34,303 nt of DNA from NCBI GenBank assembly GCA_029862005.1, contig JAOTYD010000034.1:1-34303 (forward strand), given 5' to 3'. A program made the position numbers and the translations under genes. Below the pieces are notes generated by a model. The model had not been told where the DNA came from. It did not search any database and worked only from the letters and a program-made list of their open reading frames with translations. Origin of the DNA: Gammaproteobacteria bacterium (GTDB lineage Bacteria; Pseudomonadota; Gammaproteobacteria; GCA-001735895). Below, one piece after another: positions 11,370 to 18,992 of this stretch (positions are counted from its first letter, which is position 1; the number at the start of each line of letters is the position of its first letter).

Positions 11370-11531
11370 TTACCCTGTTAAATGCATCAGATGGTCGCAA
11401 CCGAATAGGTAATGGCAGACAGGTATAACATCATGAAACGTGCAGGATGCAGCGAAAAACAAAACCGCGAAACCCAGTGAGTAAATAATTGCCCTGTAGT
11501 GCTGGTCTATCCAAGTATTGATTGCATACAT
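11370..11531 (-). CDS. putative 53-aa Cys/His-rich single-pass membrane protein
   Basis: A short minus-strand frame begins with ATG at 11531, preceded by GGGAGG with a 9-nt spacer, one of the best ribosome binding sites in the window. The peptide starts MYAINTWIDQHYR, then has one hydrophobic helix (about residues 14-31, AIIYSLGFAVLFFAASC). A short tail carries C39 and C45 and H33, H40, H47 and H50, ending at TAA 11370-11372. It is divergent from the DGC/Met-rich/RND operon that starts 235 bp away. I do not recognise a family. The strong ribosome binding site, clean helix and Cys/His-rich tail support a real gene, but its size makes this uncertain. Confidence 0.55.
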   Translation of the reverse strand: MYAINTWIDQHYRAIIYSLGFAVLFFAASCTFHDVIPVCHYLFGCDHLMHLTG

Positions 11532-11766
11532 GCTTCTTCGCCTCCCACAGCTTTTGGCATCTCTGTTTTTTAAATAATAAAAAAACCGTTTAATTGTCTG
11601 ATTAATATCGCTCCATACTGTTGATGCGAATCAAGACTGATTCCGAATTTAATGATTCTGCCGACGCCTCACCTGTTCTTCTGCCCCGTGATTGATACCG
11701 GTCAACAATTAACCTCAAGTTTTGTGTTGGAATTAAATATATGAATCGAATATGGGGGATTTAGTT

Positions 11767-12255
11767 ATGGTCGCTTCCACACCGGATTTCTCGCTTAAAG
11801 TAGAAGGCATCAAAGGAGCCTGTCCCGCGGGTGAAGCGTATGCAGAACAGAATATCGCGGATCAAAAGATCCCGGTTTTTTCCTGTGAAGGGCCCTGTAT
11901 TCGAGGCGAAATCGCGCGCCTCGCGGCCAATATCGTGGCCCAAAAAGTGCCGTCCTTGGCACGCTGTTGTCACGCGGAAACCTTTCTGGTGCCGTACTCG
12001 TCGATGGCGCGCTGGGCCAAGGGTGCCGAACGCGCCGTTATGATCGATGGTTGTTTTCTCAAGTGCCACGGGCGGGTATTGAAGAATCTGCTCGATGAAG
12101 GGCGAATGATTCATATCGATGCGTTACCGCTATACAAGAAATATACGGACGTTTTCCTGTATACCGACATTCCACAGGCGGAGCGCGAAGCGGTGGCGGC
12201 GGAAGTGGCCGATAAAATCATTACCCTGCTCGAAACCGAGACCGGAATCCATTGA
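11767..12255 (+). CDS. DGC-domain putative zinc-binding protein
   Basis: A 162-aa soluble protein of the DGC family, named for its conserved Asp-Gly-Cys. The motif is D94-G95-C96 followed by C100 (DGCFLKC). Other conserved cysteines are C19, the C40-x3-C44 pair (CEGPC), and C67-C68-H69. The family is described as probably zinc-binding through four cysteines; its biochemical role is unknown. The start is set at 11767 because GGGGGA lies at a suitable distance, rather than the upstream in-frame ATG at 11752. It leads a plus-strand series with a Met/Cys-rich membrane protein and an RND exporter. Confidence 0.82.
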   Translation: MVASTPDFSLKVEGIKGACPAGEAYAEQNIADQKIPVFSCEGPCIRGEIARLAANIVAQKVPSLARCCHAETFLVPYSSMARWAKGAERAVMIDGCFLKCHGRVLKNLLDEGRMIHIDALPLYKKYTDVFLYTDIPQAEREAVAAEVADKIITLLETETGIH

Positions 12256-12399
12256 ACCGGAACAGATGCCGGAGCCTCTGGTGAATCGCCGGCTTTTTAG
12301 CCAGGGAGGTTTCCCCCGAAATAATAACAATCATCGGGCCATTAGCCGTATTTCACCGGACGGACCCCATGAACGAAATTTTAGATGGAGGATGCAAAG

Positions 12400-12786
12400 A
12401 TGAGCGTATCAGAATCGGTAACCGGCCCGATGCCCGAAGGCGGCGGACACGAGGACAAGAAAGAAAAAATCTGTAGCGTGATGCGGGAATGCTGTAGCGG
12501 GATGTCCGCTGCGGAAAAAAAGACCGTTATGCGCGACGTGATGCCGCACATGATGGACACCATGGGTGACAATTCTATGCGTGGCACGATGGGCATGATG
12601 ATGGGCCATTGCATGCGCGCGTTTCGCTGGCTTCCCCTGATTCCGCTTGGATTTGGGATTGTATTTTTCTTGATTGGCTACTTTCTCAGCGCCGAGGCCG
12701 TGCGGATACTGTGGCTGGTGCTCGCGGCGATACCCATAATTTTGGGAACGCTGGCGCTTTTGATCACGAGCGCAATGAGTCGCTGA
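12400..12786 (+). CDS. Met/Cys/His-rich two-TM membrane protein
   Basis: A 128-aa protein starting at an ATG with GGAGG 8 nt upstream. The first 72 residues contain about 15 Met, four Cys (C25, C31, C32, C71) and three His (H17, H50, H70), including the run SMRGTMGMMMGHCM. Two hydrophobic helices follow (about 78-96 and 103-122). Met-rich MxxM/MxM strings with Cys and His are typical of Cu(I) or other soft-metal binding segments; that role here is inference. It lies 7 nt upstream of the RND exporter ATG and is probably co-translated with it. No family recognised. Confidence 0.75.
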   Translation: MSVSESVTGPMPEGGGHEDKKEKICSVMRECCSGMSAAEKKTVMRDVMPHMMDTMGDNSMRGTMGMMMGHCMRAFRWLPLIPLGFGIVFFLIGYFLSAEAVRILWLVLAAIPIILGTLALLITSAMSR

Positions 12787-12793
12787 AAGATTC

Positions 12794-15148
12794 ATGAAGA
12801 ATCTTGAGGCCAACCTCGGGCCCTGGGTTGTTCGAAACCGCTGGTGGATCATCATGGTTACCATTGTGATGGTTGCCGTAATCAGTAGCGGTCTGCGGTT
12901 TCTGAGTTTCAATATGGACAACCGCGTGTTTTTCAGCGAGGACAATCCGCAACTGGTGGCATTGGAGACGCTGGAAAATACCTATGTAAAAACATACAAC
13001 GTGGTGTTCATCGTTGCGCCGGCGAGCGGAAACGTGTTCGAGCGCCGTACGTTGGCCGCGGTGGAAGCGCTGACCGAGGCATCCTGGCAGATACCCTATT
13101 CCAGCCGGGTTGACTCGATTACCAATTATCAACACACCCGGGCGGAAGAAGACGACCTGATCATCGCGGATCTCGTCGAGAACGCCCACGGATTATCCGA
13201 TGAAGCGCTGCAGCAAATCAAGGATATTGCCCTGAGTCGTCCGATGTTGGTCGACCGCCTGGTTTCCCCATCCGGTCACGTGACGGGTATCAATGTCAAC
13301 ATTTTACTGCCGGGTGAATCACAGCAAGAGGTGCCCGAGGTCGCCGGTTTCGTGCGCCAACTCGCCAACGATATAAAGCATAAATACCCGGACATCGACA
13401 TACATATGACCGGCGCATTGATGATCGACAACGGCTTTGGCGAAATCACCGCCGATGACATGTCTAGCCTAGTTCCGATCATGTTTCTGGTGCTGATCGT
13501 CATCACCGGTGTCTCGCTGCGCTCGGTCAGCGGTACTTTCGTCACGCTGCTGGTGATTCTGATGTCGATGCTGACCGGGCTAGGTGCGGCCGGGTGGATC
13601 GGACTGCAGATGAACACCGCCTCGGCAGTTGCGCCGACCATTATCCTGACGTTGGCGATTGCCGACAGCGTCCATATTTTGGTGGCGATGTTTCACAAGA
13701 TGCACGAAGGCAAAAGCAAGGCAGACGCCATCGGGGTCTCGCTACAACAAAACCTGCATCCGGTCTTCCTGACCAGCATCACCACGGTCATCGGGTTCCT
13801 GACAATGAACTTCTCGGATGCCCCACCTTTTCGCGATCTCGGCAACATCGTTGCGATCGGCATTGTGGCCGCCTTTTGCTATTCTGTGTTTTTCCTGCCC
13901 GCCATGATGGCTGTACTGCCGGGGCGCAATAAATCGAAAGCGGCGCCGGGCTGCGAATGCCACTGCGAGTGCTGCTCCTGCCAGGGACTGGCGAATTTCG
14001 TGATTAACCATCGTCGCGCTTTGTTCTGGGGATCGCTGGCCACTATCCTGATACTCGCGGCGGGCGCATCGCGCATCGAACTCAATGACGACATGATCGG
14101 ATATATCGGCGAACAATATCAGATACGGCGGGCCAGCGACTTTATGGAGCAGGAACTTACCGGAGGCGATACGATCGAGTTTTCACTTTCATCCGGCGAG
14201 TCCGACGGCATCAACAGCCCCGAATACCTGGCTACCATCGAGGCTTTCGCCGAGTGGTACCGACAGCAGCCCAAGGTAGTGCACGTGGATGTTTTTACCG
14301 ACATTATGAAACGCCTCAATCAAAACTTGCACGGCGACGATCCGGCCTGGTATCGAATCCCCGAGCGCCGCGACCTGGCGGCGCAATACCTGTTGCTTTA
14401 CGAAATGTCGTTACCCTATGGCCTCGATCTCAATAACCAGATCAATGTCGACAAGTCCGCCACGCGCATGATCGTGTCGATCGAAAATACCACGACTCGC
14501 GAGCAACGCGAGATCGAACGACGCGGCCGTGAATGGCTTGAGGCCAATGCCCCGGAGCATATGGTTACCTATGGTTCTGGGCTGACCATGATGTGGGCCT
14601 ACCTGTCGCAGCGCAACATCAACAGCATGCTGGCGGCATCGTTCGGTGCGCTGGTTCTGATCTCGGTTATTCTGATCTTTGCGTTGCGCAGCGTGAAACA
14701 CGGCTTGATCAGTCTCGCGCCCAACCTGGCGCCGGCGATTATGGCTTTCGGCCTGTGGGGACTACTGGTCGGCCAGGTCGGGTTGGGCCTATCGGTCATT
14801 GTTTCGATGACGCTCGGTATCGTGGTCGACGATACCATCCATTTCCTCAGTAAATATCTGCATGCCCGGCGCGAACTGGGCATGAATGCCGCCTCTGCCG
14901 TGCGCCATTCGTTCAATACCGTCGGCACGGCGATGTGGGTGACCACGGTGGCACTGGTAGCGGGGTTCCTGGTGCTTGTGTTTTCCGGGTTTAAGATGAA
15001 CGCCGATATGGGACTAGTGTCGGCGATTACCATCAGCCTGGCGCTGGCAATGGATTTTCTGTTTTTGCCGACGCTGCTGATCGGAATGGAGGCGTGGAAA
15101 GATCGAAAGGAATATGCGCGGGATATCGTCGCCGGTCGGGGTGTTTGA
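12794..15148 (+). CDS. RND/MMPL-family exporter with cysteine cluster in central loop
   Basis: Inner-membrane transporter of 784 aa in the MMPL/HpnN-like branch of the RND superfamily. It has two repeated halves, each with a large periplasmic loop after TM1/TM7 and a five-helix bundle. The proton-relay type motifs are present: LAIADSVHILVAMFHKM in the first half and GIVVDDTIHFLSKY in the second. The loop between the halves (about residues 375-400) contains C387-E-C-H-C-E-C-C-S-C396, six cysteines and a histidine in ten residues, which I do not recall as a family feature. Upstream neighbours are a DGC-motif protein and a Met/Cys-rich membrane protein. Family members move lipids or hydrophobic molecules; the local context also points to metal. 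Confidence 0.88.
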   Translation: MKNLEANLGPWVVRNRWWIIMVTIVMVAVISSGLRFLSFNMDNRVFFSEDNPQLVALETLENTYVKTYNVVFIVAPASGNVFERRTLAAVEALTEASWQIPYSSRVDSITNYQHTRAEEDDLIIADLVENAHGLSDEALQQIKDIALSRPMLVDRLVSPSGHVTGINVNILLPGESQQEVPEVAGFVRQLANDIKHKYPDIDIHMTGALMIDNGFGEITADDMSSLVPIMFLVLIVITGVSLRSVSGTFVTLLVILMSMLTGLGAAGWIGLQMNTASAVAPTIILTLAIADSVHILVAMFHKMHEGKSKADAIGVSLQQNLHPVFLTSITTVIGFLTMNFSDAPPFRDLGNIVAIGIVAAFCYSVFFLPAMMAVLPGRNKSKAAPGCECHCECCSCQGLANFVINHRRALFWGSLATILILAAGASRIELNDDMIGYIGEQYQIRRASDFMEQELTGGDTIEFSLSSGESDGINSPEYLATIEAFAEWYRQQPKVVHVDVFTDIMKRLNQNLHGDDPAWYRIPERRDLAAQYLLLYEMSLPYGLDLNNQINVDKSATRMIVSIENTTTREQREIERRGREWLEANAPEHMVTYGSGLTMMWAYLSQRNINSMLAASFGALVLISVILIFALRSVKHGLISLAPNLAPAIMAFGLWGLLVGQVGLGLSVIVSMTLGIVVDDTIHFLSKYLHARRELGMNAASAVRHSFNTVGTAMWVTTVALVAGFLVLVFSGFKMNADMGLVSAITISLALAMDFLFLPTLLIGMEAWKDRKEYARDIVAGRGV

Positions 15149-15238: not shown

Positions 15239-16441
15239 CTAAAAATATCGGCTCAACTGCAATTGCAAATAATCGTCTTTCTCGATCGCAAAGCTTGTAT
15301 CGCCCGGTTCGGCATTGGTAAAGATCCGCGCTCGCAGTTCAAACACATAGTTTTCCTCAAGCCGTCGATCGGCCTCGATGTTGACGTAAGTCTCGCTGGT
15401 CTCCAGGTCGTAACCCACGCCGGCGAGCACGGCAGTGTCCTGGGTGTCGTTGAGCGCAAGCCGAATGCCAGCGAACAAGTCGTTGTCGGCCAGCGTCACG
15501 GGTTCGCTTTCGTCGCGGCCGTCGTATTGCAGTTCGAGCAGCACACCGACGTCAGCGACCGATTCCGCCACCTGGTAAAAGGTGTATTCGAATCCGCCTA
15601 CCGCGGCGGAGAACGAATCGTTTTGGGTTTCGCGTGCGATGGCTTCCAGTTTCCACAGCCAGGCGTCGCCGGTGTATTGCAGGTCGAGACCGAGTTGATC
15701 GATCTGGTCGTAAAACGGGGTGAGTTCACTGCCGTCTTGATTTGGCAGCAGTCGGGCTTCTCGGCTGGTGCCGCTGAAGGCACTGACGCCAATGTCGACG
15801 CTGCCGACGTAATGGCTGTAGCGCAGCGCTAGGTCGACGTGGTTTTCCTCGTCCGACGATTCGTACTCGGGATTGTCCGTGTCGACCGGCAGCGGCGTGC
15901 GCAGGCGGCCATCTTCACCCGCAAAAGTCCGTTCGCGGAAATAGGGCAGCACATAGACACTGATCAATCCCCAGTCGCGCTGCAGTTCGAGGTCGATCAT
16001 CGACTGGCCGAGCTTGTCTTCGCCATCGATGTCGGCGACGGCGTCGGTCTGGTTGATGATGTCGACTAGGTGTACCGATTCGGTCACGCCCCAAAACACG
16101 GTGTTGATGCCGATGAGCAGTTCGTAGTGTTCCGCCTCTTTCGCCCAGTAGGCCTCGCGCAGGTCTGCGAGCGAGCGCTCATCGTCGGTTTCGTCGTAGC
16201 GCAGGTAGGGGATGATCGATGCGCGCGATTCATCGCCGCGGTATCTTGCTTCAGTGGTGCCGGCGATTGAGAGTTGCGTTGTCGTGTCGTCCTGGTCTGG
16301 CCAGCGGGTGTCTTCGGTGAAGATGCGGGTGGTCAGGTCGATGTTGGATGAGACGTCCCAGGAAGCCCTTCCCGTCTCGGCGATGAGCGCCGGGAGTAGG
16401 AGGGGAATAGTCGCTAGGAACTTGAGGAGCTTGGTGTTCAT
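15239..16441 (-). CDS. outer-membrane beta-barrel protein (putative, exporter-associated)
   Basis: A 400-aa secreted protein with a Sec signal (MNTKLLKF, a Leu/Pro-rich core, then TGRA). The rest alternates charged turns with amphipathic strands such as ATTEARYRGDESRASIIPYL and ends in an aromatic residue in QLQLSRYF, the usual C-terminal signature for Bam insertion. The family is not recognised by name, but similar barrels often sit beside LolA-like periplasmic proteins and RND/MMPL exporters. Here it follows the LolA-like gene on the same strand. It may form the outer-membrane end of a trans-envelope route. It is convergent with the intact RND gene. Confidence 0.78.
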   Translation of the reverse strand: MNTKLLKFLATIPLLLPALIAETGRASWDVSSNIDLTTRIFTEDTRWPDQDDTTTQLSIAGTTEARYRGDESRASIIPYLRYDETDDERSLADLREAYWAKEAEHYELLIGINTVFWGVTESVHLVDIINQTDAVADIDGEDKLGQSMIDLELQRDWGLISVYVLPYFRERTFAGEDGRLRTPLPVDTDNPEYESSDEENHVDLALRYSHYVGSVDIGVSAFSGTSREARLLPNQDGSELTPFYDQIDQLGLDLQYTGDAWLWKLEAIARETQNDSFSAAVGGFEYTFYQVAESVADVGVLLELQYDGRDESEPVTLADNDLFAGIRLALNDTQDTAVLAGVGYDLETSETYVNIEADRRLEENYVFELRARIFTNAEPGDTSFAIEKDDYLQLQLSRYF

Positions 16442-16576: not shown

Positions 16577-17380
16577 TTAGCGCAGGCGGCTCAGGCGACC
16601 CTTGACGAAGTCCTTGTCCGAGAGGTCGACGTTGAATGCATAGTCCTGGTAGATCAGGTGGGTCTGTTTGTTGGTCTGCACGTTTTCCATCGACAGCTTG
16701 TGCGCGCGCCAGGCGCCGTTGTCGTACTGGCGGTAGTCGCCGAGCTCGAGCACTTTCAACAGGTCGCCGCGGCGGTCGTAGAACTCGACCTTGCGGAACT
16801 GGAACACGTCCTGGTCGACCCACGCGATCTGCTTGCTGTAACCGGATTTCTCATACCGTGGCAGGCGCTCGAGCACGTCGCACTGGTAGGCGCCACAGGT
16901 CTCGGTGCCGATGTAGCGGTAGTCGAACTTGTTGAGCTCGATTGCGGTGAAATCCTCGAACGCGAACTCGGAGCCGACGAATGGGCCGGACTTGTTGCTG
17001 GATGCGATGCGCTTGACGCGTTTCAGCGCGGGCAGGTACAGCCATTGATCGTCGGGGTCGAGGATCTTGGCGTGCGACAGCAACGCGGTGCCTTCGATGT
17101 CACGCGGCGTGTGAAACAGTACGAGGCTCTTATCGCCGACTTTTTCGTCAGGTTTTTCGAGCGTCGCGATTTCGAGTGTACGCATGGACTCCTGGCCTGC
17201 CCTGTTGCGCAGGATCATCTGCAGCACGACCCGGCTGTTGCCGAAGCCGAGGTCGGTGCGGTCAGAGCGGGCAGCGATCTCGAATCCCTTTTCCTCGGGC
17301 GTGCTAGCCACGGCCGGGCCCGCCATTACGATGAAGAACCCGAGTGCGGTGACGAGGGTGATGAAGGTTTTGAGTTTCAT
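16577..17380 (-). CDS. outer membrane lipoprotein-sorting (LolA-like) periplasmic protein
   Basis: A 267-aa periplasmic protein of the LolA-like type found with RND/MMPL exporters. It begins with a Sec signal peptide (MKLKTFITLVTALGFFIVMA, cleavage near AVA). It then shows the family sequence: a FGNSRVVLQMILRNRAGQES strand, FHTPRDIEGTALLSH, DDQWLYLPALKRVKRIA, GPFVGSEFAFEDF, and a strand-rich C-terminus. The fold offers a hydrophobic groove, so carriage of a lipid or similar ligand across the periplasm is likely. Its ATG is 21 bp past the stop of a truncated RND gene, so the ancestral order was RND, LolA-like, barrel. Confidence 0.85.
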   Translation of the reverse strand: MKLKTFITLVTALGFFIVMAGPAVASTPEEKGFEIAARSDRTDLGFGNSRVVLQMILRNRAGQESMRTLEIATLEKPDEKVGDKSLVLFHTPRDIEGTALLSHAKILDPDDQWLYLPALKRVKRIASSNKSGPFVGSEFAFEDFTAIELNKFDYRYIGTETCGAYQCDVLERLPRYEKSGYSKQIAWVDQDVFQFRKVEFYDRRGDLLKVLELGDYRQYDNGAWRAHKLSMENVQTNKQTHLIYQDYAFNVDLSDKDFVKGRLSRLR

Positions 17381-17401: not shown

Positions 17402-17560
17402 TTAATAAATGGATGATACCGCCGGTGCGGGCCGCTCGGCCACTGGCATCAGCGCGGTTTCACGCTTACGCTTGCCGAACAACAAAAGTGCTGGCAGTAG
17501 CAGGAAGTCGAGGATCAACGCAAAAACGATGGCGAGCATCGCGGGGATTTTCGCTATAGC
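17402..17560 (-). pseudogene. RND/MMPL exporter remnant (last TM helix and tail)
   Basis: A minus-strand frame ending at TAA 17402-17404 encodes MLAIVFALILDFLLLPALLL followed by a basic FGKRKRE tail. This is the characteristic last helix of RND/MMPL proteins; compare LALAMDFLFLPTLLI at the end of the intact exporter at 15.05 kb. Only about 50 residues remain. Upstream, homology stops where a palindromic repeat copy begins (17562). The stub sits 21 bp before the LolA-like gene and was evidently the first gene of that operon. The tail and spacing argue against chance. Confidence 0.7.
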
Positions 17561-17632: not shown

Positions 17633-17735
17633 CTGTAGAAATTATCGGTTAACTGACCGAAGGATAATTAATCCAGCCAAAATATCGACTCCTGCATTAG
17701 GTCTCAAGTTATGATTGCTGTCACGGGGGATATTC

Positions 17736-18992
17736 ATGAAAGCGATCGTATTTACTCAATATGGGCTGCCGAAAGGCCTTGAATTGAAAGAGGTGCCAAA
17801 ACCTGCGCCGAGGGACGATGAGTTACTGATACGCCTTCACACGTCCTTTATCAATTCCTGGGACTGGGAGTTCCTTAACGGAAAGCCGTTTATAAACCGT
17901 CTCTTTTACGGTCTTCTTAAACCAAGGCCAGGCAAGCAGATACTTGGCTCTGACGTTTCAGGAACTGTTGAGGCAATCGGCAAGTTCGTCATCGACCGGG
18001 CCAAGACGATAACGCTACTCCTTCTCATCGGCTTGTTGACAAGTCCGGTTCACGCGCTTGAGGATGAGTCCGGCTTCTGGAGCCTGCAGATTGAAAATGA
18101 TCTCTGGGGCAGCAAGGATGATCGTTTTTACACCAACGGCTGGCAATTTTCCTTTTCATCCCCAAAGTCCCCGCCTGCATACCTCGAAAAGATATCCGAC
18201 TACATTCCGTTCTACACCAAGGGCGAAACCGGATATTACGGCTATGCCCTGGGTCAGAAATTATTCACGCCGGCAAACATCAATACCTCCGAACTGCTCG
18301 TCAATGACCGACCCTACGCCGGTTGGCTCTTCGTCGAGTCTTTTATCGGACATCGTTATTTCGACCGGGGCGATCGAGAAAAAATTAACGGACTTATCCT
18401 TATGCTGGGGATCGTGGGACCGGCTTCACTGGGGGAACAAACACAGCGCGCCGTGCACAGAATGACCAGTAGCGATGATCCCAAGGGATGGGATAACCAA
18501 CTCGAAGACGAACTCGGCCTGAACGCAACCTTTTTGCAGAAATGGCGCTACATTTTAGATTTCGACGAACGGCTACAATCAGAGGTCAGCCTGCATACCG
18601 GGTTGACCCTGGGCAATGTCTACAGCTACGCTTCGCTGGGATTGATGTTGCGCTGGGGCACCTATCTCAAGGATGACATAGGTCCACCCACGATCAGTCC
18701 CGGCTTTCCGGGTCTGCCCGCGTTCAATATCAACCGCCGGGCCAACTGGTATCTGTTTGCAGGACTCGAAGCGCGCGCTGTCGCTCATAATATTTTTCTC
18801 GATGGCAACACCAATGTCGACAGTCATAGTGTTGATAAAGAGGAACTGGTAGGCGACCTGCAAATCGGAGTGGCCATCCATGCCTATGATGCCCGCATCT
18901 CGTTTAGCCAGATGTTTCGCAGCGAGGAATTTGAAGGTCAGCCCGAACGCACCCGGTACGGATTAATCAATTTCACTTTGTTCATCGAGTAA
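17736..18992 (+). CDS. chimeric ORF: alcohol dehydrogenase N-terminus fused to LpxR-like lipid A deacylase
   Basis: One open frame joins two unrelated proteins. Residues 1-83 from the ATG at 17736 are the GroES-like start of a zinc-type alcohol dehydrogenase/quinone reductase (MKAIVFTQYGLPKGLELKEV through ILGSDVSGTVEAIGK). From about 17985 the frame continues as a Sec signal peptide (RAKTITLLLLIGLLTSPVHA) and an LpxR/DUF2219 outer-membrane barrel. Barrel motifs are IENDLWGSKDDRFYTNGW, NDRPYAGWLF, and GPASLGEQTQRAVHRM, with the likely catalytic His, then PKGWDNQ. LpxR removes the 3'-acyloxyacyl chain of lipid A. No ATG, GTG or well-placed TTG remains at the natural LpxR start, so the signal peptide is now internal and the protein is probably mislocalised or expressed only through internal initiation. 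Confidence 0.8.
   Translation: MKAIVFTQYGLPKGLELKEVPKPAPRDDELLIRLHTSFINSWDWEFLNGKPFINRLFYGLLKPRPGKQILGSDVSGTVEAIGKFVIDRAKTITLLLLIGLLTSPVHALEDESGFWSLQIENDLWGSKDDRFYTNGWQFSFSSPKSPPAYLEKISDYIPFYTKGETGYYGYALGQKLFTPANINTSELLVNDRPYAGWLFVESFIGHRYFDRGDREKINGLILMLGIVGPASLGEQTQRAVHRMTSSDDPKGWDNQLEDELGLNATFLQKWRYILDFDERLQSEVSLHTGLTLGNVYSYASLGLMLRWGTYLKDDIGPPTISPGFPGLPAFNINRRANWYLFAGLEARAVAHNIFLDGNTNVDSHSVDKEELVGDLQIGVAIHAYDARISFSQMFRSEEFEGQPERTRYGLINFTLFIE

Follow-up and report, generated by a model that had tools for sequence, protein, structure and literature searches.

What an MMPL exporter with a dense patch of cysteines does beside a thiol-rich DGC protein is the question raised by positions 11767-15148 of the 34,303-nt stretch of gammaproteobacterial DNA analysed here (the window; its own genome is denoted G000). 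MMPL exporters are generally viewed as lipid carriers, and arsenic detoxification is credited to ACR3, ArsB, ArsP and ArsM. The site holds three codirectional genes, encoding a DGC protein, a Met-rich two-helix protein and the 784-residue exporter, here called P0003 (Table 1). An earlier note had placed the three adjacent ORFs correctly and had read them as a possible operon for soft-metal handling. The intergenic gaps, 129 nt between the DGC and Met-rich genes and 7 nt between the latter and the exporter, make a single operon likely; in a promoter and terminator scan, sites were no commoner than in shuffles. Upstream of the DGC gene, the intergenic stretch 11374-11536 has 85% identity to G006:C132:4145-4307 and is possibly a dispersed repeat.

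Table 1. Features of the operon and of the adjoining LolA-OMP region, in window coordinates.
Feature	Position	Strand	Details
DGC-domain protein (PF08859), predicted cytosolic, thiol-rich	11767..12255	+	Pfam 43.1 bits; alternative ATG 11752
Met/Cys-rich small protein, two C-terminal hydrophobic helices	12400..12786	+	alternative ATG 12385
MMPL/HAE3-type RND exporter, 784 aa	12794..15148	+	Pfam MMPL 8.9e-32; NCBIfam HAE3 3.3e-57
CECHCECCSC codons (residues 387-396), cytosolic TM6-TM7 linker	13952..13981	+	
Outer-membrane barrel-type protein, convergent to exporter	15239..16441	-	85% DNA identity to G000:C20
LolA-like periplasmic protein (PF17131)	16577..17380	-	Pfam 2e-59; 87% DNA identity to G000:C20
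Short match to 3' end of C20 MMPL gene, probable exporter remnant	17472..17541	-	80% over 70 bp

The DGC protein and the exporter

The first protein of the operon belongs to the DGC family by its score (the PF08859 cut-off is 27 bits), its DGC motif at residues 99-101 and its conserved cysteines. It has seven cysteines (C24, C45, C49, C72, C73, C101 and C105, numbered from the ATG at 11752) and not eight, as the earlier note had counted. C45, C49, C73, C101 and C105 are kept in 62/62 DGC homologues and C24 in 61 of the 62; C72 is not conserved among them. The protein is modelled as a confident alpha/beta structure (pLDDT 93), for which no solved relatives were found by sequence and no significant ones by fold. 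A flavodoxin or low-molecular-weight phosphatase-like fold gave weak matches only (E 0.04 or worse) and was set aside. Among 95 relatives' genomes the window's own copy was the only DGC homologue, and plasmid searches with the DGC protein and with the Met-rich protein gave zero matches.

P0003 is an MMPL protein (110.8 bits, gathering score 20.5), and its match to the NCBIfam HAE3 model lies under that model's cut-off. The structure model (pTM 0.77) has the architecture of the MmpL/NPC1/HpnN fold, in which a set of TM helices occurs twice and two loops reach into the periplasm, and Foldseek returned MmpL4, MmpL5 and MmpL3 as best matches (E 5e-24 and weaker), with NPC1-type proteins and HpnN also present. 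Fold, topology and a cytosolic TM6-TM7 linker are thus shared with the mycobacterial lipid and siderophore exporters MmpL3, MmpL4 and MmpL5, but the partners of these are MmpS and Acp, whereas the window exporter's family has LolA and OMP partners; to our knowledge, neither a cysteine patch in the linker nor DGC or arsenic neighbours are known for them. The HpnN hopanoid and BstA sterol transporters, which export lipids to the outer membrane, resemble P0003 in sequence and fold, but P0003 falls outside HpnN (NF052374, 49 bits against a cut-off of 1100; TIGR03480, 103.9 bits against 751.85) and scores 23 bits against the BstA cut-off of 1400. Their operons differ from that of the window, and we know of no linker cysteines in them. 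The RND superfamily is also common to P0003 and the CusA/CzcA heavy-metal pumps; these, however, need MFP and OMF partners, none of which occurs in the window, and P0003 scores far under the cut-off of their model (TIGR00914, 29.7 bits against 701.45).

Six of the exporter's seven cysteines lie within residues 387-396 as CECHCECCSC, exactly where the earlier note had reported its C-x-C-H-C-x-C-C-x-C motif; when seven cysteines were placed at random in 784 residues, six fell within 10 residues in 0/200,000 trials. In the model, the patch occupies the stretch between helices 344-374 and 392-405, the cytosolic linker of TM6 and TM7, and disorder is predicted for residues 381-394 by a pLDDT of <50. 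The name "cysteine knot" that it had been given does not fit, as the cysteines are bunched in a C-x-C-x-C-x-C-C-x-C motif within a linker predicted to be disordered and do not make up a disulfide knot. In MmpL5, AcpM contacts the cytosolic face via residues 377-391 among others, including R377, H382, R383, R390 and W391 (PMC11633376). By profile match (9dp6_A) these contact residues map near the P0003 linker, a placement that is approximate.

LolA and outer-membrane partners

The exporter's usual partners, a LolA-like periplasmic protein and an outer-membrane barrel, had been left out of the earlier note. Exporter homologues are present in 25 of the 31 genomes of the genus and on plasmids of Pseudoalteromonas, Photobacterium, Sulfitobacter and Halioglobus, where they are mostly followed downstream by a LolA-like (PF17131) and then an outer-membrane barrel-type gene; the barrel comes after LolA in most complete trios. 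Such partners point to envelope lipid export. In the MMPL-LolA-OMP trios of marine and other proteobacteria the exporter is about 42-56% identical to P0003 and has partners of the same families, but a linker cysteine pair is missing and no DGC, ArsM or ArsR genes were seen nearby.

An exporter, a LolA-like and a barrel gene on one strand are found at loci L095, L100, L190 and L210, described below, but not in the window, where the pair is convergent and stems from a paralogous trio, its nearest kin being a different trio on contig C20 of G000. The short match to the C20 MMPL gene is probably the remnant of an exporter that once lay upstream of the window pair, and the pair appears to be a duplicate that lost its own exporter and now stands beside an exporter without a pair of its own. 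The exporter of G006, 91% identical to P0003, has no LolA or OMP gene downstream either (the upstream half of this gene lies outside the assembly). Farther along the window, the ORF at 17715-18992 has a quinone oxidoreductase-like start, continues as an unrelated outer-membrane-type protein and looks like a gene-fragment fusion.

Linker cysteines and gene neighbourhoods across phyla

When 84,980 species' genomes were searched with the DGC alignment, 68 loci emerged, two of which contain the exporter, in addition to the window and L210. In L095 and L100 (a Nitrospirae bacterium) the DGC, exporter, LolA and OMP genes lie on one strand, and in L100 DGC plus ArsR precede the exporter. The exporter of Candidatus Desulfatibia vada (L136/L190), found among DGC-bearing genomes, is immediately preceded by genes for an ArsR-type regulator and an arsenite methyltransferase (ArsM; 341 bits in L190, NCBIfam cut-off 263). 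The exporter of L199/L210, which came from a phylum-wide scan with the exporter as query and not from a DGC match, is 68% identical to P0003, has a DGC gene just upstream and carries the linker closest to that of the window. The motifs that align with CECHCECCSC are CCSC (L095), CGSC (L100), CAGC (L136/L190) and CDCDCCSC (L199/L210). TGA codons flagged in some exporters as possible selenocysteine in the linker proved to be terminal stops.

Among 94 MMPL homologues, five have at least two linker cysteines and the remaining 89 have none or one. Four of the five adjoin a DGC gene (the window, the Nitrospirae bacterium, a Desulfobacterota-type genome and a small phylum), and the fifth has the ArsR-type regulator and arsenite methyltransferase ahead of it. 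Hence there is an exporter subfamily, in at least three phyla, with a C-x-x-C core in the linker, whose cysteine-bearing copies adjoin either DGC or ArsR and ArsM. The neighbourhood search that the earlier note had proposed, for DGC genes beside MMPL genes with linker cysteines, thus bore out the pairing in other phyla. In a literature search of partial coverage we found no description of DGC combined with a linker-Cys MMPL exporter, and nothing linking DGC with arsenic or MMPL.

The linker cysteine pair is associated with DGC or arsenic linkage at a Fisher p of 4e-7, a value that overstates independence: the five exporters are related, three were taken from genomes that had been selected on their DGC genes, and one linkage, that of L135, was counted although it lies outside the standard 1.5-kb flank. 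Flank matches among the 89 exporters without the pair number two, L138 (ArsR; one linker cysteine) and L188, and the ArsM-like neighbour of the Cys-free linker at L188 was discarded as a weak methyltransferase match (29.7%). The Nitrospirota exporters L191-L193, which at about 60-62% identity are no less similar, have neither the pair nor DGC or arsenic neighbours within 18-19 kb. Tree building on an alignment stripped of its linker columns places the six linked exporters together, with weak support (54/90) in the careful tree; the co-occurrence largely traces to one clade. Since this group spans Gammaproteobacteria, a Desulfobacterota-type genome, Nitrospirae and a small phylum where just 1 of 44 genomes gave a close exporter match, horizontal spread is the likely explanation of its distribution. 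Such transfer could by chance have put an exporter trio beside detoxification genes, the cysteines being drift in a permissive linker: the linker is disordered and the least conserved part of the exporter, and independent cases are few. However, CCSC is retained among exporters 62-68% identical overall, the other 89 linkers carry no more than one cysteine and the pairing recurs across phyla, and we hold chance to be decidedly improbable.

A second alternative is that the linker cysteines anchor a partner protein, either as a structural site for zinc or Fe-S or as a disulfide that switches with redox state, and that the arsenic link reflects general thiol stress. The minimal common motif is a bare C-x-x-C, as commonly seen in zinc ribbons and thiol switches, and DGC is a putative zinc-binding domain according to its Pfam description. 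The number of cysteines, however, runs from 2 to 6 with variable spacing, whereas structural sites do not usually vary in this way, and the neighbours are arsenic-type genes; we consider this reading unlikely.

The Met-rich protein follows a different distribution. A GGAGG Shine-Dalgarno sequence ahead of the ATG at 12400 favours that start; depending on the start chosen, the protein has 15-17 Met, besides 4 Cys and 3 His, and nearly all Met precede the first hydrophobic helix, in line with the earlier description of about 15 Met plus Cys and His before two helices. Its closest relative is encoded at L075 (42% over 62 aa), where a DGC gene lies 345 bp upstream, and at L067, L068, L070 and L122 the DGC genes are likewise followed by genes for short two-helix proteins that bear CPMA-type motifs. 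An L077 protein matching the Met-rich N-terminal half was set aside (E 0.004 over just 28 residues). Outside the window, four loci have an exporter with linker cysteines, and the protein is missing from every one of them, although other small Cys-rich proteins are encoded close by at L095 and L100, and proteins of its type elsewhere adjoin DGC genes without an exporter. As it is missing from exporter loci and present after DGC genes, the Met-rich protein is, on its gene neighbourhoods, best described as a DGC companion outside the exporter module. Co-conservation of the three Cys/Met clusters as a set, which the earlier note had suggested testing, consequently fails at 4/4 of these loci; what holds is the pairing of DGC with the exporter's linker cysteines.

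Within 3 kb of the DGC gene, an ECF sigma factor gene is present at 36 of the 68 loci, an ArsM-like gene at 12, an AhpD-like gene at 12 and an ArsR-type gene at 6, and the same gene types are far fewer in the 3-10 kb flanks; ACR3 is present at two DGC loci. With ArsM, ArsR and ACR3 in the wider DGC neighbourhoods, these can reasonably be viewed in terms of soft-metal(loid) handling, and that part of the soft-metal operon idea survives, but the Met-rich protein has no place in the exporter module. DGC genes and two linked exporters sit amid genes of ars operons (ArsM, ArsR, ACR3), and ars genes lie alongside at L190, L100, L069 and L080 but not in the window, among whose ORFs no ArsM, ArsR, ACR3 or ArsC was identified beside the operon. 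G000 does encode an ACR3 (408 bits), on a separate contig from the window; no ArsM in G000 exceeds the cut-off (best, 79 bits), which makes methylated arsenic an unlikely cargo there; a gated lipid, or a metalloid in some other state, is the better candidate.

In known ars operons efflux is by ArsB, Acr3 or ArsP (PMC5552862), and our literature search, of partial coverage, found no ars operon with a linker-Cys MMPL exporter. The exporter itself might nonetheless take in As(III), methylarsenite, another soft-metal species or a thiol adduct at the linker cysteines and pass it across the inner membrane. ArsM and ArsR immediately upstream of the exporter in L190, and DGC plus ArsR in L100, speak for such direct efflux. 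Its fold and partners are of the lipid-exporter type, however, ACR3 is already present in G000 and most other linked genomes, and G000 has no clear ArsM, which leaves direct efflux improbable.

A possible metalloid-responsive export system

The reading that we tentatively prefer, at somewhat less than an even chance, is that the exporter belongs to a form of the MMPL-LolA-OMP envelope export trio that has become adapted to a thiophilic metalloid, with the As(III) class as the likeliest. The DGC protein would bind the metalloid in the cytosol through its six conserved cysteines, and the linker cysteines would take it from the free pool or from a docked DGC protein, the docking face being the one where AcpM docks on MmpL5. 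Binding could either switch export on or provide the cargo. This may be a protective lipid, or else a lipid or thiol adduct that bears the metalloid, and its way out would lead from the periplasmic domain to the LolA-like carrier and on to the outer-membrane barrel. The window exporter, having no downstream LolA and OMP genes of its own, would borrow the convergent pair or the C20 pair. In its most specific form, a metalloid-gated or metalloid-loaded lipid exporter in which DGC hands an As(III)-like metalloid to the thiolate site of the pump and a metalloid-bearing or protective lipid exits via LolA and a dedicated barrel, the proposal is doubtful.

Taken with the literature searches, of partial coverage, the subfamily suggests a previously undescribed type of exporter, one that has become adapted to toxic metalloids. 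If so, lipid-type exporters that carry a thiolate site only when DGC- or arsenic-linked would join the fields of lipid export and arsenic, and the widespread, uncharacterised DGC family would gain a testable role. They would also hint at how Gram-negative bacteria couple envelope export to metalloid stress or discard metalloid-bearing lipids.

The DGC neighbourhoods hold further features of their own. The ECF sigma factor (36/68 loci, within L067-L134) is strongly associated with DGC genes. A conserved family, about 174 aa long and marked by a PCRFCPAAS motif, matches no Pfam family above cut-off and is encoded beside DGC genes at L109:5921-6442 and nine further loci. For three ArsM-like genes (G678:C47:22607-23278, G337:C152:17672-18334 and G341:C105:4094-4771) an in-frame TGA is reported, which possibly marks selenoproteins or else the ends of the genes.
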